Origin: Frankia torreyi
Lineage (GTDB): Bacteria > Actinomycetota > Actinomycetes > Frankiales > Frankiaceae
DNA length: 63,263 nucleotides
Direction: 5' to 3'
Assembly (NCBI RefSeq): GCF_000948395.1
Contig: NZ_JYFN01000010.1
Span: 56,636 to 119,898 of the forward strand
Made by a program: the position numbers and the translations under genes. Positions within the stretch are counted from its first letter, which is position 1. Every line of letters starts with the position of its first letter. This document shows positions 24,365 to 58,931 of the stretch, piece by piece. A model generated the notes under the pieces. The model was not told where the DNA came from and did not search any database. It saw only the letters and a program-made list of their open reading frames with translations.

Positions 24365-24547
24365 CTCCCACGCCGCCCCGCGGTTCGCTTTGGCTCCAGT
24401 TCCTCGCTGTCTTGCACCGGACACGAAGATTGCCTGGTCAAGCGTCTACGATGATCGCACCATCTAGAGGGGCGAGAGCTCCGGCGGTCGGGGGCGGTCC
24501 AGGAGCCCCGGGGTGCCTCGGTGATCGTGTGGTTTTCGGGAGTCGCG

Positions 24548-27175
24548 GTGAGTTATCAGCTCGGTATCGATGTCGGATCCGCGAACACGATCGTTGCGGT
24601 CACGGACGGCGGCTGGCCCCGCGTGCTCGAACTCGGCGGGCAGCGGCGGCTGCCGTCGGTGGTGTTCGCGCCACCGGGCGGCGGTCTGCAGTTCGCCCGC
24701 GCGGCGGCCCGGCGCGCCCAGGCCGATCCGGCCCGGTCGGCGACCGATCTGCTACGCCGGCTCGGCGACGGCGGCCCGATCCTGCTCGGCGGCGCCGCCT
24801 ACAGCCGCGAGGGTCTGCTTGGCCGGCTGGTCGCCCATCTCGTCGGCCTGGCCGTTGATCAGCTCGGCGGGCTCCCGGACCAGGTGGTGGTGACCTTCCC
24901 GACGTTCTGGTCCCCGGGCCGGCGGGAGACCTTCACCGACGCGATCACCCAGCTCTCCGGGCTGGAGCTGCCGGTCGTGGCCCTGCCCGCGGCCGACGCG
25001 ATGGGGACGCTGCTCGCCCGCAGCTCGGTGACCCAGACGGTCGACCTCGTCGGCTGGTACGACCTCGGCGCGGGCTTCCTTGACGCCGCGGTCCTGTCCT
25101 TCTCGCCGTTCGGGTTCCAGCTCGTCGGCGCGCCGGCGGGGCTGCGTCACGGCGCCGGCCTCGATCTCGACGAGCTGCTGGTGGACCGGGTGCTGGCCGT
25201 GGCCGGCATCGCGCCCGCGCACCTCGACCGGGCCGACGCCGCCACCCGTGTCGCGCTCGCCCGCCTGCGCCGCGAGGCCGCGCAGGCCAAGGAGGTCCTC
25301 GCCGAGGAGGACGAGGTCGACCTGGCGGTGGAGCTGCCCGGCATCGACGCCTCGGTCACGCTGACCCGCGGCGAGCTGGAGACGCTCGCCGGCCCGACCG
25401 TCGACGACACCGTCGAGACCTTCCGGCGGGCGTTGCGCTCGGTGCCGGCGGACCCCGCCGACCTTTCTCGCATCCTGATGTCCGGTGGGGTGGCGCATCT
25501 GCCGCTGGTGGCGCGCCGGCTGCGTGCCGCCTTCCCGGAAATCGGCCGGATCGAGCACCGCGCGGACGCGGACGTGGCGATGGGCGCGGCACTGATCGCC
25601 GCCGACCTCGCCGATCGTTCCGCCCGGGCCGGTGGGGCGGTGTTCGGTGCCGTGGGAGCGGCGGGCGCCGGGGCCATCGAGGAGCCGTACGACGTCACCG
25701 CGGTCATCCGCCCGCCGGACGCCTCCAGCCTCACGTCGCTGCCGCCGTTCCTCTCCGGGGGCGGGACGCCGCCGCCGGGGGCCGGTGCCGGCGGGGCAGC
25801 CGGCGAGGGCGGGGCGGCGGTCGCCGCCGGATCGTCGGACGGCGGGACTCCGGGCCCCTACGGGGCGGCGGGCGGTTCACCCGGTTTCGGCGAGGCCACC
25901 GTGCTCACACCGGACGCCGGTCGCGGTCATGGCGCCGCCGGCCTGCCGGGTGGGGGCGGCGGTGGTGCGCTCGGCCAGCCGGGCGCGGCCCCCGGTGCCT
26001 ATGCCGCGGCCGCGAGCGCCGACGAGACCGGACTGCTCCCCGCGGACGCAGCGGGTGCGCCCGTGGGCGCCGCCGCGGACGCCGGGGGGTCGCATCGCGC
26101 CACGCAGGGAGGCGGCGGCGGGATCTTCGGGTCCCGTCGGGTCATGGTGGCCGCGGCGATCATCGCCGTCCTGTTCGTCGCCATCGGGACGACCGCCGGA
26201 GTCGTGCTCACGGGGCGCGACTCGGGTTCGGGCGGGGACTCCGTGGCCGCCGTCGGGGGAGCCTTCCCGACCACGGATCCGATTCCACCGTCGTCCAGTC
26301 CCACCTCCGAGCCGCCGGCCGCCACGAACCTCGTGCGGGTCGCGGGCTCCTCCGAGGTCGCCCCCATCACCGAGACCGCCTACAACGAGTTCCGCCAGAC
26401 CCAGCGCAACGTCACCGTCAACATCGAGGCGACCAGCACCGAGGACGGTTTCGCGGCCCTGTGCAGCGGCAAGGCCGAACTCGCCGACGCCTCCTTCGAG
26501 CTCACCCCGGGAATCGTCAAGGATCCCGGATGCGCGAAGCAGGTCGTCGGGTTCGAGGTCGCGCACCACACCCTGCCGATCGTGGTCAATCCACAGAACA
26601 CCTGGCTGCACTGCCTCAGCCTCAAGCAGGTCAAGCAGATCTGGGGCGCCGACTCGTCGGTGACCCGCTGGAGCCAGATCGACAGCTCGTTCCCGGACGA
26701 ACCGATCGCGTTCGTCGGCCCGCCCCACGACTCGGTGCAGGCGGAGGTCTTCAACGCGACCATCAGTGACGCCAGTGACCGCTCCCGCGCCTACCGGCAG
26801 GTGGACCTGAGCGGGGTCGCCAACGACGTCGCCGGCGACCGGTCGGCCATCGGTTTCCTGGATTACCCCACCTACGAGACGTTCGGCGCCAGGCTGCGCG
26901 GAGTGGAGATCAACAACGGCGAGGGGTGCGTCGCGCCGACCGCGGTGGCCGTCGGCACCGGGCTTTACCTGCCGCTGTGCAAGCCGCTGTTCGTCTACGC
27001 CCGCACCGACGCGCTGCGTCGGCCGGCGACCGCCGCCTTCCTGCGCTACTTCCTGGAGAATGGTCGCAAGATCGCCTTCGACGCGCACTACGTGCCGCGC
27101 AGCGACGACACGGTCGGGGAGAACGTCGCCAGGCTGGAGAAGCTGACGACGGGGGTGGGACCGGTACCCGCCTGA
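24548..27175 (+). CDS. Hsp70-like ATPase fused through a membrane helix to a PstS-like solute-binding domain (copy 1)
   Basis: 875 residues from the GTG at 24548 (CGGGAG upstream). Residues 1-350 form an Hsp70/actin-type ATPase: phosphate-1 loop GIDVGSANTIVAV, phosphate-2 WYDLGAGFLDAAV, a Lys/Glu-rich helix then VDLAVELPGID, and the adenosine motif LMSGGVAHLPLVARRL. No substrate-binding beta domain follows; instead there is a Gly/Pro/Ala-rich linker (about 360-530), one membrane helix (about 531-556) and an extracytoplasmic domain (about 592-875) resembling phosphate-binding PstS (RVAGSSEVAPITETAYNEF, then a conserved Cys pair region). So an ATPase inside is joined to a ligand-binding domain outside. 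Ligand and function are unknown. A strong hairpin follows the stop. Confidence 0.85.
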   Translation: MSYQLGIDVGSANTIVAVTDGGWPRVLELGGQRRLPSVVFAPPGGGLQFARAAARRAQADPARSATDLLRRLGDGGPILLGGAAYSREGLLGRLVAHLVGLAVDQLGGLPDQVVVTFPTFWSPGRRETFTDAITQLSGLELPVVALPAADAMGTLLARSSVTQTVDLVGWYDLGAGFLDAAVLSFSPFGFQLVGAPAGLRHGAGLDLDELLVDRVLAVAGIAPAHLDRADAATRVALARLRREAAQAKEVLAEEDEVDLAVELPGIDASVTLTRGELETLAGPTVDDTVETFRRALRSVPADPADLSRILMSGGVAHLPLVARRLRAAFPEIGRIEHRADADVAMGAALIAADLADRSARAGGAVFGAVGAAGAGAIEEPYDVTAVIRPPDASSLTSLPPFLSGGGTPPPGAGAGGAAGEGGAAVAAGSSDGGTPGPYGAAGGSPGFGEATVLTPDAGRGHGAAGLPGGGGGGALGQPGAAPGAYAAAASADETGLLPADAAGAPVGAAADAGGSHRATQGGGGGIFGSRRVMVAAAIIAVLFVAIGTTAGVVLTGRDSGSGGDSVAAVGGAFPTTDPIPPSSSPTSEPPAATNLVRVAGSSEVAPITETAYNEFRQTQRNVTVNIEATSTEDGFAALCSGKAELADASFELTPGIVKDPGCAKQVVGFEVAHHTLPIVVNPQNTWLHCLSLKQVKQIWGADSSVTRWSQIDSSFPDEPIAFVGPPHDSVQAEVFNATISDASDRSRAYRQVDLSGVANDVAGDRSAIGFLDYPTYETFGARLRGVEINNGEGCVAPTAVAVGTGLYLPLCKPLFVYARTDALRRPATAAFLRYFLENGRKIAFDAHYVPRSDDTVGENVARLEKLTTGVGPVPA

Positions 27176-27305: not shown

Positions 27306-27839
27306 TCAGGCGACGGAGTGGGTGACGGTGCAGGTGTAGGTGCCGACGATCACGTTCGTGGGAACGGCCACGGTGAGTGTCGGTTCCCACGAGACGGTGC
27401 TCGTGTCGAGATCCATCGTGGTGGCGGAGAAGGCGGTGCGGGAGGCGGCCAGCGTCACGGCACTCGTCGCGGTGGGCTGGCCGGGGCTGACCAGGGATGG
27501 CAGGCCGGTCGTGGCGGTGGCGGGGCCGGACCAGTAGATCAGCGACGCCCGGGGGATCGTCTCGTCGGACGCGCCGGTCCCGGTCGTGCAGTTCGTCGAG
27601 GTCACGGTGGCCGTCCAGGCGCCGACCAGAGCGGTGCTGGTGACGGTCGTCGTCGCCAGTTGGACGCTGAGCGGGTCGTCGCCGATCGCGTGCGAACCGA
27701 GGTTCGCCGTAGCGGGAGCGGTGATGGTCAGCGTCGCCTGGGCCGGACTGCCGGACCAGGTGACCAGCAGGATCACGAGGACCGTGAATGCCGAAAGCCT
27801 GCCTGTAGTCCGCCCGAGGCCGGGGAGGTTGCACCGCAT
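27306..27839 (-). CDS. Secreted WxL-like small surface protein A
   Basis: 177 residues. The ATG at 27839 has AGGAG 8 bp upstream. A signal peptide (hydrophobic LSAFTVLVILLVTWSG, cleavage near AQA-T) leads to a beta-rich, Thr/Ser-rich domain. It is a paralogue of the divergent neighbour: both share TITAPATA near the N-terminus, a W-x-A/S-x-V strand (GAWTATVTST here), an IYWSP/HYSPG-like turn, and near the end SWEPTLTVAVP with a closing YT-T-TH. This layout fits the WxL surface domain known from Firmicutes, supported by the adjacent DUF916-type gene. WxL domains bind peptidoglycan non-covalently. Two Cys (near Asn-Cys-Thr and Thr-Cys-Thr) may form a disulfide. Confidence 0.65.
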   Translation of the reverse strand: MRCNLPGLGRTTGRLSAFTVLVILLVTWSGSPAQATLTITAPATANLGSHAIGDDPLSVQLATTTVTSTALVGAWTATVTSTNCTTGTGASDETIPRASLIYWSGPATATTGLPSLVSPGQPTATSAVTLAASRTAFSATTMDLDTSTVSWEPTLTVAVPTNVIVGTYTCTVTHSVA

Positions 27840-28105
27840 CTCGACGACTCCTGACCGCATCCGCAGCACGATGCTGGCCTTGCTACCACGACGCACGAGG
27901 GTGGGTCTGGACCTCGGGGCCGGACGGGACGAGTCCGGCGGGGGCGGGGGCGAGCGGTGGCCGGGGAAGGCCGTCGAGACACGCGACTGTTGCTGTGTGT
28001 GTTCGTTCGCTACCCAGGGTGATAGCTTTCGCTGCGTGCCCGGCGGATCACATCTCTCGATACCGCAGCAGGGGCGCTCCGGCCTCACACAGGGGAGTAG
28101 TTACG

Positions 28106-28645
28106 TTGCGTAAGTCATCGCTGTTTCTTCTGAGCGCAGCCGCCGCGGCGGCCGCCCTTCTCGGCTCAGCGCTACCGGCCAATGCCGCGACCGCCGACAC
28201 CGTGGTGACCCTGACCCTCACCGGAGGGGCCGTGAACATCACGGCTCCGGCCACCGCTACCCTGACCGGCGCGATCGGGACGACGCCCGTGTCGGGTCCC
28301 CTCGGGCTCGTCACGGTCACCGACACCGAGGGCACCGAAGCGCCCTCCTGGGTGGCCAGCGTGTCCACCACCAACTTCAACGCGCCGGTGGGTTCCGGCA
28401 TCGCCCCGATTCCCGTCGCGAACATCCACTACTCGCCGGGCACGGTCACCCGCGTGAACAACACGGGAACCGCAAACGACGCCAACTTCACCGGCGAATT
28501 CGTCGCGGTCCCGACGGTGACGGCCACCGGCGGCCCCGGCATCAACTCGGCGTCATGGAACCCGACGCTGACGGTGGACATCCCGCCCACCGCCGTCGCC
28601 GGTACCAACTACACCGCCACGATCACCCACTCCACGGTGCCGTGA
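28106..28645 (+). CDS. Secreted WxL-like small surface protein B
   Basis: 179 residues from a TTG at 28106, chosen because AGGGGAG lies 8 bp upstream and the next residues (RKSSLFLLSAAAAAAALLG) make a normal signal peptide cleaved near ANA-A. The mature part contains VTVTDTEG followed by SWVASVSTTNF, the W-x-hydrophobic strand expected of WxL domains, and ends SWNPTLTVDIP...YTATITHS. It has no Cys. It diverges from paralogue A across a 266-bp region and is 13 bp ahead of the DUF916-type gene, so B and its partner form an operon. Role: probably a cell-wall-bound surface protein; ligand unknown. Confidence 0.7.
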   Translation: MRKSSLFLLSAAAAAAALLGSALPANAATADTVVTLTLTGGAVNITAPATATLTGAIGTTPVSGPLGLVTVTDTEGTEAPSWVASVSTTNFNAPVGSGIAPIPVANIHYSPGTVTRVNNTGTANDANFTGEFVAVPTVTATGGPGINSASWNPTLTVDIPPTAVAGTNYTATITHSTVP

Positions 28646-28658
28646 TCGGGGCTACGGG

Positions 28659-29687
28659 ATGAACAGAGGCACCCTCTTCGGTGCCCTCGCGGTGGTGGCC
28701 GGGATGCTCATCCCGGCCACCACCGTTCCTGCCGTGTCGGCCGCGCCCCGCAACGGGACCGTCAACTCCGACGGGACGTTCGGGATCAGGCTGGTCGAGG
28801 TCACCGCGTCGCTGTGGAAGGATCCCCGGGCCAGGCAGTACATCGTCGATCACCTCAACCCGGGCACCACGATGCGCCGCCAGGTGGAGGTCGTGAACAA
28901 CACCGACGCCCCGATGCGGATCGAGCTGTACCCGGGGGCCGCGAGCCTCGGTGAAAGCTCGTTCCACTTCGCCGAGGGGCGCAAGCCCAACGAGCTGACC
29001 ACCTGGGTCAGCCTGGACCGGAGCGCGATCGAGGTCGGCGCGCACTCCCGGGAGAAGGCCGTGGTGACTGTCGCCGTACCCCGGGACGCCTCGCCGGGCG
29101 AGCACTACGGCGTGCTCTGGGCGCAGGCGGGCAGCGCGGCGCCGAAGGGCAGCGGCTTCCAGATGGTCAACCGGGTCGGGATCCGGATGTACCTGGACAT
29201 CGGCCCCGGCGGCCCGCCCGCCGCCGGCTTCACCATCGCCGCACTCACCGCGAGCCGTCTGCTCGACGGGCGACTGGCAGTCGGTACCGAGATCCACAAC
29301 ACCGGTGGTCGGGCGTTGGACATGTCCGGCGAGCTGACGTTGACCAAGGGTCCGGGCGGCCTGCAGGCCGGACCGTTCCGGGCGAACCTCGGAACGACGA
29401 TCGCCCCTGGGGAGGTCAGCCCGGTCTCGTTCGCACTCGACGGGCAGATGCCGGCGGGCCCGTGGACCGCGACGGTGACACTGCACAGCGGGCTGGTCGA
29501 GCGGACCGCCACGGCGGTGATCCGTTTCCCTGACCGTCGCGGCGCCTCCGAACGGGTCCGAGTGAGTGGCGCCTCCACCCGCCGGGTCGCGGTCACGTCC
29601 GCGATCGTCACCGGCGGGTCGCTGTTCGGCGTCGGAATGCTGGTCATGCTCGCGCGCCGGTGGCGCCGACGCCGGTCGGCCTCCTGA
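28659..29687 (+). CDS. WxL-partner protein (DUF916/DUF3324-like), C-terminally membrane-anchored
   Basis: 342 residues. A signal peptide (cleaved near VSA-A, about residue 28) precedes two beta-sandwich domains. The first (about 38-180) reads like DUF916/WxL peptidoglycan-binding: LNPGTTMRRQVEVVNNTD, then TTWVSLD...IEVGAHSREKAVVTVAVP and SPGEHYGVLWA. The second (about 195-290) resembles DUF3324: GRLAVGTEIHNTGGRALD and APGEVSPVSFALDG. A final helix (about 305-328) and an Arg-rich tail anchor it. In Firmicutes these proteins accompany WxL proteins in surface complexes. It starts 13 bp after protein B and converges on the kinase gene, 18 bp apart. Confidence 0.75.
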   Translation: MNRGTLFGALAVVAGMLIPATTVPAVSAAPRNGTVNSDGTFGIRLVEVTASLWKDPRARQYIVDHLNPGTTMRRQVEVVNNTDAPMRIELYPGAASLGESSFHFAEGRKPNELTTWVSLDRSAIEVGAHSREKAVVTVAVPRDASPGEHYGVLWAQAGSAAPKGSGFQMVNRVGIRMYLDIGPGGPPAAGFTIAALTASRLLDGRLAVGTEIHNTGGRALDMSGELTLTKGPGGLQAGPFRANLGTTIAPGEVSPVSFALDGQMPAGPWTATVTLHSGLVERTATAVIRFPDRRGASERVRVSGASTRRVAVTSAIVTGGSLFGVGMLVMLARRWRRRRSAS

Positions 29688-29705: not shown

Positions 29706-32459
29706 TCAGCTCGCGCAGGCGTCGGACCAGGGGACGCCGGGGACGAATCGGCTCCACTCCGCCCGGCTCGGTGCCGCCCCCGGCTTCGCGCAGGCGCCCT
29801 GCCGCAGCCGCTGCGGGTCCAGCGTCCCGAGCAGGATCGTGCCCCTGTCGGTGGTCAGCGCGACGCTCCCCGCGGCGGTCGCGCTCATCGCCCGCACCGG
29901 CGAGTCCACGGTGCCCATGGGGATGAGCGCGGGCGCGGAAACGGCGAGATTCGAGTACGCGACGCTGCCTGCGCTGTCCGCGCTCAGCAACTGGTCGCCG
30001 GCGGCGAAGGCGACGGTGGTCACGGGCGCGGCGTGGCCGGGCAGGCGCTTCGCGACTCGCGGATGGTTCGGGTCGGCGACGTCGGACACCTGCAGGTTCT
30101 GGTCGTCGCCCCCGGTGGCCAGCAGCGTGCCGCCCGGGCTGAACGCCACCGTGTTGACGGCGCCGGTGTGGCCCGGCACCGAGCCCATCTGCGTGGGGTG
30201 GCGCGGGTCGCGCACGTTCCAGAGCTGGACGGTGCCGCCCACCCCGGCGATGGCGAGCACGGCCCCGTCGGGGCGCAGCGCCACCCCCGTCACCGGTCCG
30301 GACCGCCCGATCAGCAGTTGCAGGGAGGTGGGCCGGGCGGGGTCGGTGATGTCCCACAGCCCGACCGACCAGTCGACGCCGGCCGTGGCGAGCAGATGAG
30401 CCTTGGCGGACAGGGCCAGGCGGTGCACCGGAGTCGACTGGGTGCCGAGCGCGCCGAGCGGACGCGGCCTCGCCGGGTCGCTGACGTCCCACAGCCGACC
30501 GGCGTCGGTGGCCCCGCCGGTCGCCAGCGTCCGGCCGCCGTTGTCGAAGATCACCCCGCTGGCGTGGTCGTCGGCCGAGCCCTGCGCGGCGACGGTCGGC
30601 CGGCCGGCGTCGTCGAGGCGCCACAGGTGTAGCCGGCCGGCGTCGTCGGTGCCGGCGAGTGTCGTGCCATCCGGGCTGAGCGCGAGGTCGGAGTACGCCG
30701 ACGCGCCGGCGGGCACCCGTGTCGCGGTCGACTGCGCGAACGAGGCGATCAGCGCGTCCCGGGCCGCGGTGGTCGGGGCGAGCGTGTAGGCCGCGAGGCT
30801 GAGCCGCGCGGCGAGCTGCGGATCCTGGGCGCGACGTGCGGCGGCGTCGGTGGCCAGCCGCGTCGACGCGGCCGCTCGCTCGGCCGGGCTCGCGGCGCCC
30901 GGCCCGCCGCCGCCGCCCAGGACGATGACCGGAATCGCCACCGCGGCGGCGAGCAGGACCACCAGGGCGCCGGCGAGCACAAGCGCGCGGGGTCGGCGCC
31001 GGCGCCGGGTAGGCGGCGCGCTGTCCGGCGGACCACCCGGCGTCGTGGCTGCGCTGCCCGGTCCCTGTGCCGGCAGCGAGACGGATCCGCCTGGTGGGAC
31101 GGATCCGCCTGGCGGAAGGGACGGCGTCGCCGGCTCACCCGCACCGGTACGCCCCGCCGGGCCAGGGGAGCCGACCCGAGGTGGTGCCGAGCCCGGCGAC
31201 CCGCCGGGCGGTGGGGTCCGAGGTGAGACCGGGGGCGGGAAGGCCAGCGGCGCCGGCGACATCTGGGTCGCCGGCATCGCCGCGGCCGGTGGACCACCGC
31301 CGGCCGCGTACGGCGGCACCGCCGTGCCGGGGCGGCCGCCCCACGAGGCGGTCGCGGAGACCGTGGCCTCCCCGCCCGGTCCCGTGGCGGGCGGAACCGA
31401 TCCGCCGGACGCGGGTGCCCCCACCGAGCCGGTGAACCCTGCCCCCGCGATGCGCCCCGTAGCGCCTCCGGGACCCGCTGTGCCGGGTGGTGGCGCTGCC
31501 GGGCTCGGGGCTGCGGCGCCACGGCCACGCCGACCCCATCGCCGGGGCTGGGCGGCGGAGTTCTCGGCGGGCTCGTCCGGCGTTGCCTCCGGCGCCGGTC
31601 GAGCGGGCAGCGCCCCACCGCCGATCAGTGCCGTGCGCAGCTCCTCCGCGCTCGGGCGCGCCTCGGGGTTCTTCGCCATCGCGACCTCGATGAGGCCACG
31701 CAGTTCCCCGCTGACGCCGTCGAGCCGAGGCGGCTCGTTGATGATCCGGTAGAGGATCGCCTCCATCCGGCCGGTGCCGAACGGCGGCTGGCCGGTGGCG
31801 GCGAAGACCATGACCGCACCCCAGGAGAAGACGTCGACCGCCGAGGTGATCGGCGCGTCGAGAATCTGCTCGGGCGACATGTAGCCGGGCGTCCCGATGG
31901 CCTGGCGCACGTTCCGGCTGAGCTCGGTGTCGGCATTGAACTCGCGGGCCAGCCCGAAGTCGATCACCTTCGGGCCGACCGGGGACAGCAGCACGTTGCC
32001 GGGGGTGAGGTCCCGGTGCACGATCCCGGCGGCGTGGATGGCACTCAGCGCGGTGGTGACGCTGACGGCGAGCTGCTCGAGGTCGGCGGGCCGCATCGGC
32101 CCCCGGACCGAGACGTGCCGGGACAGCGTCGGGCCCTCGACGAACTCGGTCACGAGATACGGCTGCGGGCCGTGGGGGTCGGCGTCGAGCACGGCCGCTG
32201 TGGTGAACCGGCGCACCCGGCGCGCGCTTTCGGCCTCCCGGGCGAACCGGGCACGGAACTCGGGGCGCTGTGCGAGTTCCGGCCGGATCACCTTGATGGC
32301 CACCGCGGTGCCGTCGGGGGCCCGGCCGAGGAACACCGTGCCCATCCCACCCTGGCCGAGTCGGCCGATCACCTGGTAGGTGCCGAGGCGGCGGGGATCC
32401 TCGGGCTGCAGCGGGCGCGCCGTGTTCCCGGACAACGGTGGTGGTGTCGTCCCCGTCAC
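29706..32459 (-). CDS. Transmembrane Ser/Thr protein kinase with extracellular WD40-like propeller
   Basis: 917 residues from the GTG at 32459 (GGGAG upstream); a TTG at 32510 is also in frame. The kinase domain is complete: GQGGMGTVFLG, Lys56 in VAIKVI, HRDLTPGN (Asp150), DFG (Asp167) and GTPGYMSPEQ. A Pro/Gly/Ala-rich juxtamembrane stretch (about 285-485) leads to one membrane helix (about 488-512). Outside, after a helical Ala/Arg part, come about six WD40-like repeats (about 590-917), such as YSDLALSPDGTTLAGTDDAG and VNTVAFSPGGTLLATGGDD. A propeller could sense ligand or partner proteins. It lies 175 bp downstream of the second Hsp70-PstS fusion on the same strand. Confidence 0.92.
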   Translation of the reverse strand: MTGTTPPPLSGNTARPLQPEDPRRLGTYQVIGRLGQGGMGTVFLGRAPDGTAVAIKVIRPELAQRPEFRARFAREAESARRVRRFTTAAVLDADPHGPQPYLVTEFVEGPTLSRHVSVRGPMRPADLEQLAVSVTTALSAIHAAGIVHRDLTPGNVLLSPVGPKVIDFGLAREFNADTELSRNVRQAIGTPGYMSPEQILDAPITSAVDVFSWGAVMVFAATGQPPFGTGRMEAILYRIINEPPRLDGVSGELRGLIEVAMAKNPEARPSAEELRTALIGGGALPARPAPEATPDEPAENSAAQPRRWGRRGRGAAAPSPAAPPPGTAGPGGATGRIAGAGFTGSVGAPASGGSVPPATGPGGEATVSATASWGGRPGTAVPPYAAGGGPPAAAMPATQMSPAPLAFPPPVSPRTPPPGGSPGSAPPRVGSPGPAGRTGAGEPATPSLPPGGSVPPGGSVSLPAQGPGSAATTPGGPPDSAPPTRRRRRPRALVLAGALVVLLAAAVAIPVIVLGGGGGPGAASPAERAAASTRLATDAAARRAQDPQLAARLSLAAYTLAPTTAARDALIASFAQSTATRVPAGASAYSDLALSPDGTTLAGTDDAGRLHLWRLDDAGRPTVAAQGSADDHASGVIFDNGGRTLATGGATDAGRLWDVSDPARPRPLGALGTQSTPVHRLALSAKAHLLATAGVDWSVGLWDITDPARPTSLQLLIGRSGPVTGVALRPDGAVLAIAGVGGTVQLWNVRDPRHPTQMGSVPGHTGAVNTVAFSPGGTLLATGGDDQNLQVSDVADPNHPRVAKRLPGHAAPVTTVAFAAGDQLLSADSAGSVAYSNLAVSAPALIPMGTVDSPVRAMSATAAGSVALTTDRGTILLGTLDPQRLRQGACAKPGAAPSRAEWSRFVPGVPWSDACAS

Positions 32460-32634: not shown

Positions 32635-35178
32635 CTACGCCGGTTTCACGGCCGGAACGCCGGCCGTCAGGTTCTGCACGATGGCGATGTTGTCACGCAC
32701 CGTGGCGTCGTCGCGGGCGATGTAGTGCGCCTGGGACGTGATCTCCTTCTGGTTCTGCAGGTAGTACCGCAGGAAGGCGGCCACCGCCGGCTTGCGCAGC
32801 GATGCCTTGTTCGCGTACAGGTACAGCGGCTTGCACAGCGGCATGTACATGCCGGTGCCGGCGGTGAGCGCGTTCGGCTCGACGCAACCGCGGCCGGAGT
32901 CGAGCTTGATGGCGCGCACCGCCCGGTTCGTCGTCAGGAAGTTCGAGTAATCCATGAAGGCGATGGCACCGCGGTCGCCGTCGACCCGGGCTGGGATCTC
33001 GTCGAGTTCCCGGGTCTCGTAGGCACGGGTGTTCGTCGAGCTGCCGGTCATGCTGGCGAGGAACACCTTGGCGTGGACGGTCGACGCCGCGGGGCCGATG
33101 GGGGACAGCGGAACGTTCGGGAAGCTCGGATCGACCTGGTTCCAGTTGGTCACCGTTGAGTCCCGCGCCCAGATGCGGCCGACCTGGGCCGTGGTCAGGC
33201 ACTGCGCCCAGGTGTTCTGCCTGCTCACCACGATCGGCAGCAGGTGGTGGGCGATCTCGAAGCCGGCGACCCGGGTCCCGCAGGCCTTGTCGGGCAGCGC
33301 GTAGGAGGCCCCGACGATGTCTGCCTGGCCGGCGCAGACCTTCTGGAAGCCGTCGTCCGTGTCGGTGCTGCCGACGCGGACGGTGACGCCCTTCGCCGAC
33401 TCGCGGAACAGGCTGTACGCCGTTCCGGTGATCGCGGCCACCTCCGCCGAACCCGTCGTGATCACTGCATTGGGATCGACGGCGCCGCCGCCGGCGCCTG
33501 CTCCGCCGGCGCCCGCCCCGCCCGCGATCCCGGCCGCCCGTTCGGCCGCGCGCATCGTGTCGGCGGGTAGCTGGGGATGCTGATCAACCGTCGAGCGGGG
33601 CGGTGCGGCAGCGGTCACCGAGGTGCCGTCGCCCCCGCCGGTCAGAACCAGGCCGAGAGTGACGCTTCCGGCGATGAACACGACCAGCGCCAGCACGCCC
33701 GCCAGGAGCCGGCGCCTCGGCCGACCGCCCGCCGACCAGCGCCGACGTCCGCCGGCCGCGGACGCCTGGGCGCCCTCACCCGACGCCGCGGCCGCGATCC
33801 CGCGCGGGCCGGCCGGCGCCGTCGGGGTGCCGGAACCCGCCCGGGCGCCCTGCGCGGCCGGATCCGGCGAACCCGGATCGCCCGCGGCCCCGGCCGCGGC
33901 CGCGGCCGCGGCACCCATCAAGGCACCCCCGGCCGCCGACGCACCCCCGGGCATCGACCCGTGGGACGCGCCGCCGGCGGCCCGCCGGTCGGCCGGACCC
34001 GACGACTCCGCCCTCGGTGGCGGGGTGTGCCCGACGACGGGCGGCACGCTTGGCGGCGGGGTTGTCGCGAAGGCGGCCGGGCCGAGCAGGACCGTCTCCG
34101 AGCTCGCCGGCTCGGCCACGGCGTCGCGCGCGGCGAGCAGCGCCGCCCCGAGGGCGAACTCGCCGTCGTGGCGGATCTCCAGCCGGCCCACGTCCGGAAA
34201 GTGCTCGCCGAGCAACCGGCTGACCAGTGGGATTCGTGCACCCGGACCGTAGACCGCGAGCAGGCCGAGCGCGCCGGTGTCGCTCGCCGCGGCGCGCACC
34301 GCCCGGGCCAGCACGCGGATCGAGTCATCGAGCAACGGCCGGACGAGCGACTCGTAGTCGTCCCGGCTGACCTGAACGACGGTGGTCGTGTCGCCGGTGG
34401 GCACGGCGACGTCGGCGAACGTCTCCTCGGTCAGGACCTCCCGGGCCTCGGCGCAGGCCGCGCCGAGGCGGGCGCCGTCGGCCGACGCCCGCGGGCCGCC
34501 GCGCAGACGCTCGCCCGCGTCGCCGACCAGCCCGGCGACGTGGGCGTAGAGCAGGTCGTCAAGCATCGAGGTCGACACGTCGGCGAGCCCGACCGGGGAA
34601 CCTACGGGCACGTAGCCGCCGGCCGTCGCGGTGAACACCGCCGCCTCGAACCAGTGCGACCCGAGCTGGTAGGTCGCCGCGCCGCGCCCGTCGGCCACGG
34701 GAGTGGTCTGCGAGAACAGGGCGGCCATCGCCTCCGTGGAGCTGCGGGCGACGACCGGAGTGGTGGTCTCCAGGCGGGCGATCGCGTCCGCGAGCCCCTC
34801 CTGCCGGCGCGCCGGCCAGGTCGCCGGGCTGGTCACGACGACCAGCTCCGGCGGTTCACCGCGCTGGGCGGTGGCTGTGCGGATCATCGCGTCGAGGAAG
34901 CGGGCGAGCAGTGCCGAGGCGGTGTAGCCGATCCCGCCGACGAGGATCGGCGTCGAGTCGCCGAGCCAGTGCACGAAGCCGTCGGCGGTCCGCTCCGGCT
35001 GGCTGGCTCGCAGCCGGACGGCTGAGCGCCCGACGCGCACCGAGCCGTCGGCGGCGAGATGGAGCACGGTCGGGATCTGCGGTTCGCCCTCGACGGCGAT
35101 GGCGGACGGCCAGCCGTTCTCCGCGATGGCGGCCGTGGTGACGTCGACGCCGGGACTGATGCCGAGCTGGTATCGCAC
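32635..35178 (-). CDS. Hsp70-like domain fused to PstS-like solute-binding domain (copy 2, degenerate ATPase)
   Basis: 847 residues from the GTG at 35178, preceded by CGGGGGAA. Same architecture as copy 1: Hsp70-like fold (1-350), Gly/Pro/Ala linker, membrane helix (about 487-510), PstS-like domain (about 573-847; TTGSAEVAAITGTAYSLF). The nucleotide site has decayed: phosphate-1 reads GISPGVDVTTAAI (the catalytic Asp is Ser), phosphate-2 reads TYQLGSHWFEAAVF (Asp to Gln) and the adenosine motif is VYGPGARIPLVSRLL. The binding-protein half is better conserved between copies (AHHLLPIVV, NTWAQCLTTAQV, YMPLCKPLYLYA). It is likely a pseudo-ATPase partner of copy 1, and may be cotranscribed with the kinase. 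Confidence 0.85.
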   Translation of the reverse strand: MRYQLGISPGVDVTTAAIAENGWPSAIAVEGEPQIPTVLHLAADGSVRVGRSAVRLRASQPERTADGFVHWLGDSTPILVGGIGYTASALLARFLDAMIRTATAQRGEPPELVVVTSPATWPARRQEGLADAIARLETTTPVVARSSTEAMAALFSQTTPVADGRGAATYQLGSHWFEAAVFTATAGGYVPVGSPVGLADVSTSMLDDLLYAHVAGLVGDAGERLRGGPRASADGARLGAACAEAREVLTEETFADVAVPTGDTTTVVQVSRDDYESLVRPLLDDSIRVLARAVRAAASDTGALGLLAVYGPGARIPLVSRLLGEHFPDVGRLEIRHDGEFALGAALLAARDAVAEPASSETVLLGPAAFATTPPPSVPPVVGHTPPPRAESSGPADRRAAGGASHGSMPGGASAAGGALMGAAAAAAAGAAGDPGSPDPAAQGARAGSGTPTAPAGPRGIAAAASGEGAQASAAGGRRRWSAGGRPRRRLLAGVLALVVFIAGSVTLGLVLTGGGDGTSVTAAAPPRSTVDQHPQLPADTMRAAERAAGIAGGAGAGGAGAGGGAVDPNAVITTGSAEVAAITGTAYSLFRESAKGVTVRVGSTDTDDGFQKVCAGQADIVGASYALPDKACGTRVAGFEIAHHLLPIVVSRQNTWAQCLTTAQVGRIWARDSTVTNWNQVDPSFPNVPLSPIGPAASTVHAKVFLASMTGSSTNTRAYETRELDEIPARVDGDRGAIAFMDYSNFLTTNRAVRAIKLDSGRGCVEPNALTAGTGMYMPLCKPLYLYANKASLRKPAVAAFLRYYLQNQKEITSQAHYIARDDATVRDNIAIVQNLTAGVPAVKPA

Positions 35179-54158: not shown

Positions 54159-56020
54159 CCACGCCCATCACGGCTCGGCGGCCGGGCCACGACGCCCGGC
54201 TCGCGTCACCCCGGCCGAGCTGCTGGTTTGTCGCCCTGTCGGACCGGGATCCGGTGGTGCTGCCTGCCGCGGTCCGTCGGGTGCTGCGATACCCCTCGGG
54301 GCGGCCGTGGCTCGTCGGCGACTGGCCGGACGACGCGATGGTCAGCGCGGCGACCCATCGTGCCCGGATAGCACTGGTCGGCCGAGTCGAGGCGAATTCC
54401 AGCCAGCTCCTACGCCTGCTGATGGCCGCCCGGGATGTGCATTCCCTCGACGTCGCGCGCGCCGTGGCCGGGGACTACCACGTCATCGCCGAGATCAACG
54501 GGCAGTGCAGGCTCCAGGGCAGCCCGACCGGCACGCGGCGGATCTTCACCGCGTTGTCCGGGGGGCAGCACGTCGCCGCGGACCGCGCCGACGTCCTGGC
54601 CGAGCTGGCCGGCAGTGAGCTGGACCGCACGGCGCTGGCCCTGTCGCTGCTTGATCCATTCCCGCCATATCCGCTTGACGACCTCGTCCCGTGGGAGTCG
54701 GTCGAGACCGTGCCACCCGACCACTACCTGTTCCTGGATCGTGATGGACGGGTCGAGCGGATGCGCTGGTGGCGGCAGCCGGCGTCGGTGCGTTCGCGGG
54801 CCGAGGGCGCGCCGATCCTGCGAGCGGCCCTCGCCGAGGCGGTGTCCGTGCGGGTGGCAGCGGGACGCACCGTCAGCGCCGACCTGTCCGGCGGGCTGGC
54901 TTCGACCGCCGTGTGCTGCCTGGCGGCCCGCGGCCCCGCCGACATCGTCGCGGTCACCCGGATCGCCCAGGACCCCGATGGCAACGATGCACGCTGGTCA
55001 GCCGACGCGGCGGTCTCGCTGCCTGGTGTCGCTCGGGAGATTCTGCCCGCAAGCGAGCTCCCGCTTGTCTTCGACGGCATCGCCTCCGCCGATGAGGCGC
55101 TCGACCGTCCCTTCGTCGGCCTCGTGGATCGGGCGAGGATGCGGGCGGGCCTCGACCGCGTCGCTCTCTACGGTCCTCGCCTGCACCTGACCGGCTTCGG
55201 CGGTGAGCAGGTCGCGCAGGGGGCGCCGAACTACCTGTCTCGACTGGCTCGCCGACGGCCCTGGACCACGTTGCAGCACCTGCGCGGCTTCCGTGCCCGG
55301 GAGGGCTGGCCGTGGGCCGCGAGCCTGCGGATGATGCGCCGTCGGGACTACCGCGACTGCCTGTTCGACCTGGCCCGGGCCCTCGACCAGGCTCCGCTCG
55401 GGGGAGGCCCCGCGCGGCCCGAGTCCCCCCATGCGGCGGCGGCCCTGGACTGGACGCTGCCGCCGATCGTCCCGGGCTGGCTGACCCGCGCCGCCCTGAG
55501 GCTCATCGCCGAGGCCGTCGCCGACGTGGCTCGCCGAGACGCCCCCCTGGCGCCGACGCGGGACGGACACGCCGACCTGTTCGCGATCCGGGCCGCCGCG
55601 TCCGCCTTCCGGCTGTTCGATCAGATGGCCAGCCCGGTCGGCCCGCCGCTGAGCGCGCCGTTTCTCGACGACCGGGTCGTCCGCGCCGCGCTCGCCGTCC
55701 GGGCGGAGGAGCGCGCCTCTCCCTGGGAAAACGAGCCGCTGCTCAAGGAGGCGATGCGGCAGGTGGTACCGGCGAACTGCCTGCTTCAAAAGATCTCTGG
55801 CGGCGCCGACGCCGAGCAGGGCCGGGGGTTGCCTGCGAATCGTGGCGTTCTGGTCGGGCTGTGCGAGGACTCGCCGCTGGCCGACCTCGGACTCATCGAG
55901 CCGGAGGCGCTCCGGGAGGCGTGCCGGCAAGGGGCCGCGACGGACCGCCGGCTCCAGGCCCTCCGACCGACCTTCGCGGCCGACGCGTGGCTACGTACCC
56001 TCGCCGGCCGCTGCGGCTGA
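54155..56020 (+). CDS. Lasso peptide cyclase (C), asparagine-synthetase-like
   Basis: 621 residues from the GTG at 54155 in a GTGA overlap with the precursor (a GTG at 54152 is equivalent). An N-terminal glutamine-amidotransferase-like part lacking a starting Cys (1-205) precedes the ATP-dependent synthetase domain. The PP-loop, normally SGGxDS, reads SGGLAST (about residue 246): the Asp is Ala. The C-terminal region is normal (SAPFLDDRVVRAALAV and LLKEAMRQVVP). It should adenylate the ring Asp and join it to Gly1. Whether the altered PP-loop still binds ATP-Mg is open; the rest of the domain looks intact. Confidence 0.9.
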   Translation: MTTPITARRPGHDARLASPRPSCWFVALSDRDPVVLPAAVRRVLRYPSGRPWLVGDWPDDAMVSAATHRARIALVGRVEANSSQLLRLLMAARDVHSLDVARAVAGDYHVIAEINGQCRLQGSPTGTRRIFTALSGGQHVAADRADVLAELAGSELDRTALALSLLDPFPPYPLDDLVPWESVETVPPDHYLFLDRDGRVERMRWWRQPASVRSRAEGAPILRAALAEAVSVRVAAGRTVSADLSGGLASTAVCCLAARGPADIVAVTRIAQDPDGNDARWSADAAVSLPGVAREILPASELPLVFDGIASADEALDRPFVGLVDRARMRAGLDRVALYGPRLHLTGFGGEQVAQGAPNYLSRLARRRPWTTLQHLRGFRAREGWPWAASLRMMRRRDYRDCLFDLARALDQAPLGGGPARPESPHAAAALDWTLPPIVPGWLTRAALRLIAEAVADVARRDAPLAPTRDGHADLFAIRAAASAFRLFDQMASPVGPPLSAPFLDDRVVRAALAVRAEERASPWENEPLLKEAMRQVVPANCLLQKISGGADAEQGRGLPANRGVLVGLCEDSPLADLGLIEPEALREACRQGAATDRRLQALRPTFAADAWLRTLAGRCG

Positions 56021-56104
56021 GCGCAGGCGGGTCGCGGGCGCCCCGGCGCCGGCACGGATGGCCTGGGAGATCTGCCGAAGATCGACGGACCAGCGGGAGT
56101 GGAC

Positions 56105-56437
56105 ATGGTGATGTTGCGATCCGACGTGGTGCGGGCGCCGACCGAGTACGGTGCCGTGCTTCTGCACACCGAAGACGGGCGGTACTGGACGCTCAACCCC
56201 TCGGGTGATCTGGTTCTCCGCGTCCTGTTGGACGGGGGAGACGTCGCCGCCGCCGTGCGGGAGCTGTGCACGACCGTAGAGGTCGATCCGCAGGTCGCGC
56301 GCCGCGATGTCGAGGGTCTGCTGGCCCAGCTCGCCGACGTCGGCCTGATCGAGCCGGAGTCCGAGGCTCGCTGGTCGCCCGAGGTCGAGGCGGGATGCCC
56401 CGGCAACGATGCGGGCAGGCCGGAGGCACGGCGGTGA
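56105..56437 (+). CDS. Lasso RRE protein (B1, PqqD-like)
   Basis: 110 residues from the ATG at 56105 (GGGAG, 5 bp). It shows the RIPP recognition element: VRAPTEYGAVLLHTEDGRYWTLNPSGDLVLRVLLDGGD, then a helical DVEGLLAQLADVGLIE, as in PqqD-like proteins. It should hold the precursor leader via the aromatic-x-x-Pro motif and present it to B2 and C. Its stop overlaps the B2 start (GTGA). Confidence 0.92.
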   Translation: MVMLRSDVVRAPTEYGAVLLHTEDGRYWTLNPSGDLVLRVLLDGGDVAAAVRELCTTVEVDPQVARRDVEGLLAQLADVGLIEPESEARWSPEVEAGCPGNDAGRPEARR

Positions 56438-56868
56438 CGGCGCCGATGGTGGTCGAACGATCGGAGATCGCACTGCGCCCCGGGCGTCGACTGGGGGCGA
56501 TGGCCGCGGTCGGGGCGGCACGGCTGCTCGCTACTCAGTCGCCGGCACGCATCCGTCGGGTGCTGGGCCGGCTTGGCGAGGGCGCTCGGCCGGCGGACTA
56601 CGCCAGCGCGCTCGCCGCACGCCAGGCGGTGATGGCCGTGAGCCTCACCTGTCGGGAGGAACGAGGCTGCGTTCCCCGTTCGATCGCCACCACCCTGCTG
56701 TGCCGGATGACAGGCAGCGTGCCGACCTGGTGCGTCGGGGTGCGAACCGTCGCGCCGTTCGCCGCGCATGCGTGGGTCGAAGCGGACGGTGTGATCGTCG
56801 GTGAGTCGGTGCCGCCCGGATACCTGCGTGCGCTGCTCGCCGTCGGGCCGGGGACCGAACCGTGGTGA
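56434..56868 (+). CDS. Lasso leader protease (B2, transglutaminase-like)
   Basis: 144 residues from the GTG at 56434, overlapping B1. The transglutaminase-type Cys protease core shows CREERGCVPRSIATTLL with Cys79 as nucleophile and AAHAWVEADG with His112; the acid is probably in the following ADG. The N-terminus is a short helical part. It should cut the leader after Ala21 when the RRE protein presents the substrate. The small size and separate RRE gene are typical of actinobacterial lasso clusters. Confidence 0.92.
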   Translation: MTAPMVVERSEIALRPGRRLGAMAAVGAARLLATQSPARIRRVLGRLGEGARPADYASALAARQAVMAVSLTCREERGCVPRSIATTLLCRMTGSVPTWCVGVRTVAPFAAHAWVEADGVIVGESVPPGYLRALLAVGPGTEPW

Positions 56869-58931
56869 GGGGGCTGGCCGAGCTCTGGGCGTTGTTGCGT
56901 GGGCACGGACGGCCCGTGGTGATCGCCACGGTGCTGACCGTGATCGGTACCGGCGTCGGAGTGCTCCAACCACTGCTCGTGATGAGGGTGATCGACGCCG
57001 CGCAGGCCGGTGGTATCCCGTTGTGGCTGGTCGGGTCGCTTCTGGGTCTGTTCGTCTGCCAGGCGATCATTGACACCGTCGGGCACTACCTGCTGGAACG
57101 AGCCGGTCAGGGGATCCTGCTCGGCCTGCGCCGACGGCTGATCGGCCATCTGCTGGCGCTGCGGGTGCAGATCTTCGACACCCGTCGGATCGGGGACCTC
57201 ATCTCGCGGGCGAACACGGACACCACTGTGGTTCGGGAGGCGGTGGCCTACAGCTTCACCTCGCTCGTCACCAGCCTGATCGGGGTGGCCGGCGCCGTCG
57301 CCCTGATGGTGTGGCTTAATCCGTGGCTGTTCCTGCTCGTCCTCGCAGTGGTCGCGGTGGCCGGGGTGGTGGTCCTCGGTGCGCTGTCTCGCATCCGAGC
57401 GGTGTCCGAGCGTGGGCAGGCGAGCGTGGGAGGCATGACCGCGGACCTGGAACGGGCCTTGGTCGCGATCCGTACCGTGCGGGCGAACCGGGCCGAGGCC
57501 CGCGAGGCCGAGCGAATAGGCGATCACGCCTCCGCCGCTTACCAGGCAGGTATCCGCATGGCAAAGCTGGACTCGATCATTGCGCCCGCCATGCAACTGG
57601 CCGTGCAGGGCAGCGTCCTGGCCGTCCTGCTGGCCGGTGGGGTGCTGGTGGCTCGGGGCTCGGTCTCGCTCGGCAGCCTCGTCGCCTTCCTCCTCTACGC
57701 GACCTACCTGGTCATGCCGTTGTCTCAGCTCATCGAATCCGCCGCCACGATCCAGCGCGGGCTCGGGGCGCTCGCGCGGGTCAACGCCGTGTTCGCACTG
57801 CCGCGGGAGGACGACGACACCGTGTTGCGCGGTCCGCTGCGCACGATCGCGACCGCCTGGCCCGCCGGGTTGACACCGCCCGCCGTGGCCCTGCTCGCGC
57901 AGGGGGCGTCGGGGCAGGCTCAGGTCACGTGCTGCCCCTCGCCGGAGCAGGCGGCCGGAGCGGCTGGAGGGTCTGGAACGGCTGGAGGGGCTGGAGGGGA
58001 ACGGCCCGCGGTGGCCGCAGCGCGGGGGACGGTGGGTGAGGGCGACCGGGCGGCGGCGATCGAGCTGCGAGAGGTGCATTTTGCCTACACCACGACGCCG
58101 GTGCTGCGTGGAGTGTCGTTCCAGGTGCCCCGGCGGGGCCACGTCGCGCTGGTCGGAGCCTCGGGAGCTGGCAAGTCGACCGTTCTCGAACTCGTGGAGC
58201 GGTTCTACGATCCGGACGAGGGGCAGATCCTTTTCGCGGGCCGAAATGTCCGTTCCATCTCCCGCAGCAGTGCCCGGACCTGGGTGAACCTGGTTGAACA
58301 GAACACGCCGGTGCTGCACGGCACCCTGCGGGACAACATCGTTTACGCGATGCCGGACGCGGCCGAGGACGAGATTGCGCAGGTGGTGGCGACGGCTGGA
58401 TTGAGGGACCTCGTCAACCGGCTGCCTGATGGGCTGCACACCGCGGTAGGCGATCACGGCGTGCTGCTCTCCGGCGGCGAGCGGCAGCGGGTGGCGATCG
58501 CCCGTGCGCTGCTGCCGAACCCCGCCGTACTGCTGTTGGACGAGCCGACCTCGCAGCTCGATGCCGTCAACGAGCGTGTGCTGACCCAGGCGATGCGCCG
58601 GATCGCCGCCGAGCGCGCCCTGCTCGTCATCGCGCACCGCATCTCGACGGTCCGGGCGGCCGACCGCATCATCGTGCTGGACGAGGGCCGGGTGATCGCG
58701 GAGGGCACCCACGACGAGCTGATGGCGACCAGTGCGTTCTATCGGGGGCTCGCCACAGCCCCGCCGGCGCGGCCTGCGGGAGCGGCGGGAGACCGGACCG
58801 CGCGCGACGAGCAGCGGCGGCCGCCGGCAGGTCCGTTCGGACCGCCGCCGACGGAAGGCGGTGACAGCCACCCGGGGTCACTCAGTCCGCTGGGGCGCCG
58901 TCGGGCAGGGCGTCGTGCCGTCGTGGGGTGA
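56865..58931 (+). CDS. Lasso peptide ABC exporter (D)
   Basis: 688 residues, with GTG at 56865 in a GTGA overlap (56862 equally possible). A six-helix ABC transmembrane domain (about 20-305) is followed by a 70-residue low-complexity Ala/Gly insert and then the ATPase domain: Walker A GASGAGKST, Q-loop LVEQNTPV, signature LSGGERQRVAIARA, Walker B VLLLDEPT and the H-loop IAHRIST. A half-transporter that works as a homodimer. Export and possible self-immunity are expected. A Gly/Arg-rich tail ends the protein. The full A-C-B1-B2-D run is one operon. Confidence 0.93.
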   Translation: MRGLAELWALLRGHGRPVVIATVLTVIGTGVGVLQPLLVMRVIDAAQAGGIPLWLVGSLLGLFVCQAIIDTVGHYLLERAGQGILLGLRRRLIGHLLALRVQIFDTRRIGDLISRANTDTTVVREAVAYSFTSLVTSLIGVAGAVALMVWLNPWLFLLVLAVVAVAGVVVLGALSRIRAVSERGQASVGGMTADLERALVAIRTVRANRAEAREAERIGDHASAAYQAGIRMAKLDSIIAPAMQLAVQGSVLAVLLAGGVLVARGSVSLGSLVAFLLYATYLVMPLSQLIESAATIQRGLGALARVNAVFALPREDDDTVLRGPLRTIATAWPAGLTPPAVALLAQGASGQAQVTCCPSPEQAAGAAGGSGTAGGAGGERPAVAAARGTVGEGDRAAAIELREVHFAYTTTPVLRGVSFQVPRRGHVALVGASGAGKSTVLELVERFYDPDEGQILFAGRNVRSISRSSARTWVNLVEQNTPVLHGTLRDNIVYAMPDAAEDEIAQVVATAGLRDLVNRLPDGLHTAVGDHGVLLSGGERQRVAIARALLPNPAVLLLDEPTSQLDAVNERVLTQAMRRIAAERALLVIAHRISTVRAADRIIVLDEGRVIAEGTHDELMATSAFYRGLATAPPARPAGAAGDRTARDEQRRPPAGPFGPPPTEGGDSHPGSLSPLGRRRAGRRAVVG

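Follow-up and report, generated by a model that had tools for sequence, protein, structure and literature searches.

Three adjoining genes of Frankia torreyi, here called A, B and W, probably encode a divergent actinobacterial homologue of the WxL-WxLIP (csc/elr) surface system, in which W holds the two small proteins A and B at the wall. They lie in a stretch of 63,263 nucleotides that was analysed as a whole (the window). WxL systems, familiar from bacteria of the gut and of food, have been described almost only in Bacilli and are tied there to virulence and gut hosts. The large related branch found here in soil actinomycetes, mostly missed by Pfam, implies a greater age or mobility of the system than has been described, and no tie to animal hosts. 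The results give a likely role to hundreds of genes annotated as 'hypothetical' or 'DUF916', and the fusions with ice-binding and LamG domains found in relatives make the surface-anchor role directly testable.

Gene content of the module

Gene A (27306-27839, minus strand, 177 aa), gene B (28106-28645, plus strand, 179 aa) and gene W (28659-29687, plus strand, 342 aa) exactly fill the span 27306-29687. A is transcribed divergently from B, and B lies directly upstream of W, which starts 13 nt past the end of B. A begins with ATG behind an AGGAG-type site and B with TTG behind AGGGGAG; longer reading frames starting at 28088 and 27995 overlap one another and are unlikely to mark the gene starts. 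The promoters of A and B are presumed to lie in the 266 bp between them (27840-28105), and no sigma-70-type promoter or terminator was found in the module region.

A and B are paralogous to each other, with 35% identity (BLASTP E 9e-12). W is 98% identical to its counterpart in Frankia tisae and 92% to that in F. gtarii. Against Frankia and Parafrankia orthologues W has a dN/dS of 0.23-0.28, B one of 0.20-0.46 and A one of 0.50-0.69. By this substitution pattern, and by the presence of the same set in further species, A, B and W are real protein-coding genes under constraint, with A the least constrained. By inspection, all three proteins start with a Sec-type signal peptide. In W this is followed by two Ig-like sandwiches, a C-terminal transmembrane (TM) helix and an RRWRRRR tail; the helix (residues 306-341 in the structure model) and the Arg-rich tail seen in the sequence occupy 29574-29684 on the plus strand. 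The predicted pI is 10.9 for W, 4.3 for A and 4.1 for B.

Homology to WxL and WxLIP proteins

In the Pfam search W matched PF06030 (WxLIP_PGBD) at E 0.003 and 18 bits, which is below the cut-off of 27.3 bits, and no W match to PF11797 (DUF3324) was listed. A and B gave no PF13731 match at E up to 1, nor was this family matched anywhere in the source genome at E up to 10. Single-sequence searches of A and B against Pfam, NCBIfam and PDB sequences returned nothing informative. Since Pfam is nearly silent on W, A and B, we made profiles of actinobacterial loci alone and ran them against Bacillota loci (sampled from Enterococcus, Listeria, Lactiplantibacillus, Levilactobacillus, Paenibacillus and Melissococcus) to which shuffled decoys were added, with E-values computed on the nominal database size.

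The W profile finds the sampled Bacillota WxLIPs, mostly near full length, with a best E-value of 7.6e-27 and others such as 1e-22; in the best case, a Paenibacillus WxLIP, profile positions 64-331 are aligned and span both sandwiches. With the B profile, WxL proteins of L. plantarum and Paenibacillus are found over most of the length (E about 1e-10), and with the A profile a Paenibacillus WxL protein (E 1.4e-11). Shuffled decoys were absent from the matches listed. Comparison of profiles with hhalign gives 97.0% (E 1.2e-10) for the small WxL-like family against Bacillota WxL, as opposed to 1.5% for the crossed control, and 96.3% across 215 columns for W against WxLIP, as opposed to 0.2%. It is thereby shown that W belongs by descent to the WxLIP family (DUF916-DUF3324-TM) and, at the level of sequence, that A and B descend from the WxL domain family, their link to the Bacillota proteins running via intermediate actinobacterial sequences. 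Against PDB sequences the small-family profile returned just a weak glycoside hydrolase stretch, while with that of W a single repeat protein, weakly matched, and no WxLIP came up; the WxLIP match thus rests on the fold and on the profile comparison with Bacillota sequences.

Predicted structures

The model of W (pLDDT 84.9) consists of two beta-sandwiches and the helix 306-341. Its best solved matches are the E. faecium WxLIP chains 9i25_C (Z 15.5) and 9i1y_B (Z 15.2), the former from an entry whose title names E. faecium WxLIP bound to long WxL. Residues 38-292 of W (28770-29534, plus strand) match 9i25_C with an rmsd of 8.0 over 238 residues, and this large value suggests a different inter-domain angle in W. 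PapD-family chaperones score three units below the E. faecium WxLIP (Z 10-12.4). For the model of B (pLDDT 87.6) the fold matches are weak throughout (Z up to 8.2), with no solved WxL chain among the matches listed; many are pilin domains, including the donor-strand types CfaE, FimG, Csu, CfaB and EcpA. Such weak matches, at the level of common arrangements, are suggestive of a resemblance between the modelled B and pilins but by themselves no evidence for it.

Motifs of the small proteins and of W

Neither A nor B has the dual Trp-x-Leu motif (the second as YxxxLTWxL). Their second WxL is replaced by His-Ser-Thr/Val, A ending in THSV, and they are therefore WxL-like homologues rather than textbook WxL proteins. 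The first Trp (residue 82 of B) is invariant across 102 aligned domains. Where the locus has a window-type W, 38 of 45 domains read W-x-A at the first motif, equally many (38/45) have His at the second motif position, and 44 of the 45 show an additional Trp in WNPTL. Bacillota domains show W-x-L at the first motif (11/14) and Trp at the second (13/14), the latter being absent from every actinobacterial domain examined. As these sequences indicate, the essential part of the domain is not the dual WxL motif.

A V-x-D-x-R-G turn is found in most members of the small family. Ahead of the first Trp, most actinobacterial relatives have Asp-x-Arg-Gly, which reads D-T-E-G in B and is missing from A. 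In addition, A has a pair of Cys (TNC ... YTC). Ten A-type members have both Cys, and only two have a single one, in each case through truncation ahead of the second, so that a disulfide is predicted. With the exception of one truncated pseudogene, the domain ends 0-7 residues ahead of the stop codon in actinobacterial members. In W no NQIDKxxxYFDLK is found near the N-terminus, where the aligned place is DPRARQYIVDHLNPG. In the G-strand of W, Arg172 is invariant and Arg176 nearly so, while the residues there are variable in Bacillota. The altered motif of the small proteins and the Arg strand of W may represent a matched change in both partners.

These results bear on a preliminary description of the DNA, in which A and B were taken for secreted paralogues with WxL-type strands and W for a membrane-anchored protein with DUF916/DUF3324-like sandwiches. 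The latter is borne out by the profiles, by hhalign and by the fold. For A and B the paralogy, secretion and WxL homology (profiles, hhalign) hold and the dual motif does not. The profile check proposed there was likewise divided: Pfam alone was negative or sub-threshold, and profile-profile comparison was positive.

Distribution and gene pairing

A scan of representative genomes yielded 352 W relatives, and one is present in 82 of 296 sampled genomes of the class. Their scores fall in two groups, one window-like (E below about 1e-80) and the other weaker and DUF916-like. At least one WxL-like gene is nearby in all 79 actinobacterial loci kept, and in 77 of these it lies directly upstream of W on the same strand. 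The loci come from Frankia, Parafrankia, Pseudofrankia, Protofrankia, Streptomyces, Kitasatospora, Arthrobacter, Cryobacterium, Rhodococcus, Lentzea, Micromonospora, Streptosporangium and others, as well as from environmental MAGs. They show W and a small WxL-like gene to be a conserved unit across Actinomycetes. Phages gave no W match. The compact three-gene module of the preliminary description is real, and its notion of a distinct actinobacterial lineage is supported by the two separated W groups and by motif changes in the small partner that match them.

On plasmid copies the small gene is annotated as 'hypothetical', and W either likewise or as 'DUF916 domain-containing protein'. PF06030 is above cut-off in 19 of 296 sampled genomes of the phylum, and according to one survey about 9% of WxL sequences come from outside Firmicutes (PMC9772566), so that database annotation already shows part of the actinobacterial branch. 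In the open-access literature we found no paper on WxL systems in actinomycetes beyond the remark that Ang-2 genes, a group confined to Actinomycetota, have DUF916 genes as neighbours (PMC12537917).

Two side observations concern WxLIP-like genes elsewhere. PF06030-like matches occur in the control genomes of Thermotoga maritima and Methanosarcina acetivorans, outside Gram-positive bacteria, suggesting that the WxLIP fold is broader than described. In other Frankia (loci L066-L069) a further WxLIP-like gene, very divergent in sequence, is accompanied by a small secreted gene of its own and by a secreted protein of roughly 2000 aa; with W as query no such gene was found in the window genome.

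Neighbouring genes

Around the module lie two paralogous Hsp70-PstS fusion genes (24521-27175, plus strand; 32635-35178, minus strand), each with an N-terminal Hsp70-like and a C-terminal PstS-like substrate-binding domain and probably a TM segment between them, and a gene joining an AfsK-like Ser/Thr kinase domain to a WD40 propeller (29706-32435, minus strand). No LPxTG gene was seen adjoining the module. The Hsp70-PstS fusions are found beside the module in Frankia only, and so is the kinase-WD40 gene save for kinase-like matches near two Streptomyces loci. In a related Frankia (locus L063, 6700-6860) a clean deletion has fused the 5' end of A to the 3' end of W and removed B, yet both Hsp70-PstS genes and the kinase are kept. 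From the Frankia-only neighbours and this deletion it follows that the module is a separate unit. The pairing with Hsp70-PstS fusions and kinase that the preliminary description had proposed is therefore not upheld; its neighbourhood comparison succeeded for the WxL-like gene upstream of W and failed for Hsp70-PstS outside Frankia. Further along the window (54281-58931, plus strand), asparagine-synthase-like, PqqD-like and ABC transporter genes stand in a row resembling a lasso-peptide cluster.

Large proteins ending in a WxL-like domain

Cryobacterium suzukii has a protein with Ice_binding (E 1.9e-93) and Ig domains and a WxL-like domain at the C-terminus. A C-terminal WxL-like domain is also found on an ice-binding-like protein in two Frankia (about 115 kb from the module in a finished genome) and on a LamG/DUF2341/He_PIG protein in Lentzea. 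In one genome a protein with three ice-binding domains plus a WxL-like domain is encoded close to a W homologue and beside small WxL-like genes. As judged by eye, many of the other ice-binding-domain proteins of actinobacteria have an LPxTG/TM-like end instead, and the interchange of these ends fits an anchoring role. The C-terminal use of the domain in relatives supports its role as a surface anchor. In the window genome A and B are the only two WxL-like domains genome-wide. Its contig C110 holds a short remnant of an ice-binding-like (DUF3494) domain at about 204956-205084, and related Frankia carry DUF3494 intact, in a protein with a WxL-like domain at its end.

Proposed mechanism and alternatives

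Once exported, W would stay in the membrane of the producing cell, anchored by its C-terminal helix with the positive tail inside. Its first sandwich would hold A and B at the wall by completing their incomplete beta-sandwich in the fashion of PapD and pilins, and this hold would protect both proteins and retain them on the surface. In relatives the C-terminal WxL-like domain would present adhesin-like modules (ice-binding-like, LamG, Ig) on larger proteins; as the only clients in the window strain are A and B, the output there is likely a surface or wall complex of W with A and B. WxL and DUF916 proteins are reported to interact in vitro, and ElrA to accumulate only with the help of other elr genes (PMC4522977); with AlphaFold, a WxLIP strand is inserted into WxL (PMC10599100). 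Together with the anchor fusions, these published data lead us to favour W as a membrane-tethered chaperone or receptor for A and B. A more general idea can be put forward tentatively, with more doubt than confidence: monoderms may practise membrane-tethered donor-strand chaperoning, with an exposed strand of W, as a PapD-like receptor, completing WxL-like domains. In Actinomycetes the His-Ser-Val end that replaces the WxL motif and the strand of W bearing R172/R176 would then form a separate pairing code that anchors ice-binding and other adhesin-like domains.

W might also act as an assembly chaperone like PapD/FimC, giving a strand to A and B, which would then polymerise by strand exchange into a surface fibre. 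PapD-family proteins are indeed the closest solved folds to W after WxLIP, many donor-strand pilins are among the weak matches of B, and the fixed C-terminus of the small domain is pilin-like. However, W carries a membrane anchor, there is no usher (none is expected in a monoderm), the fold matches of B are common arrangements only, and a free N-terminal donor strand is not shown in A or B, so we consider a fibre improbable. Exceedingly unlikely is that A and B resemble WxL through convergence of Thr/Val-rich secreted beta-sandwiches: the empty single-sequence Pfam and PDB searches would agree with it, but not the near full-length profile matches with their clean cross-controls, the invariant Trp, the turn shared by most members and the near-universal adjacency to a WxLIP homologue.

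Two further explanations start from the surroundings of the module, genomic or ecological. Its adjacency to the Hsp70-PstS fusions and the Ser/Thr kinase is conserved in several Frankia species and could mean that all form one sensing or surface unit. However, W homologues of other genera and of plasmids lack this set beside them, the kinase gene converges on B and W rather than running co-directionally, and L063 lacks the module but has both fusions and the kinase; such coupling is very unlikely and was rejected as a general rule on account of the Frankia-only adjacency and the deletion. Frankia nodulates plants, and for Bacillota WxLIP an insertion into host membranes has been proposed (PMC10599100), from which one may picture a symbiosis adhesin whose C-terminal W helix enters the membranes of the plant. 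This we hold to be highly improbable, since Streptomyces, Arthrobacter, Lentzea, Micromonospora and environmental MAGs have the same module, and the Arg-rich tail past the helix agrees with the positive-inside rule for a helix in the membrane of the cell itself.

Comparison with known systems

PapD-like chaperones are soluble and periplasmic and have usher and pilin partners. What the module shares with PapD/FimC and pilins is the two-domain Ig chaperone fold of W and the weakly pilin-like B; it differs in the lack of an usher, the membrane anchor of W and the lack of a detected sequence relation, leaving a likeness of fold only. In csc clusters the genes are co-directional, and a large WxL protein (CscC) and an LPxTG protein (CscD) are usual. 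Read as a WxL-WxLIP homologue, the module is similar to the csc/elr clusters of Bacillota in its compactness and its content of one CscA-like and two CscB-like genes, whereas A is divergent and neither a large WxL nor an LPxTG partner was found at the locus.

W differs from WxLIP/CscA/ElrE (PF06030 + PF11797 + TM) in staying below the PF06030 cut-off without a PF11797 match, in having DPRARxYIVDHLxPG in place of NQIDKxxxYFDLK, and in having RVGIR in the strand that carries motifs such as YAYVV in Bacillota WxLIP; it forms its own group in Actinomycetes. Like the known proteins, it is secreted and very basic, has two Ig-like sandwiches followed by a TM helix at the C-terminus, is encoded beside a small WxL gene and has 9i25/9i1y as its best solved fold. 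Compared with CscB (small WxL, PF13731), A and B have Ala for the Leu of the first motif, THSV/THST for TWxL and the additional Trp in WNPTL, and A lacks the D-x-R-G turn and has its Cys pair. Nonetheless, the signal peptide, the single acidic C-terminal domain of ~150 residues, the invariant first Trp, Y-x-x-x-[IV]-T near the end, the partner gene directly downstream and, in most relatives, the D-x-R-G turn are all as in CscB. Finally, the split in charge between basic W and acidic A and B is the same as that between CscA and CscB (PMC1534035).
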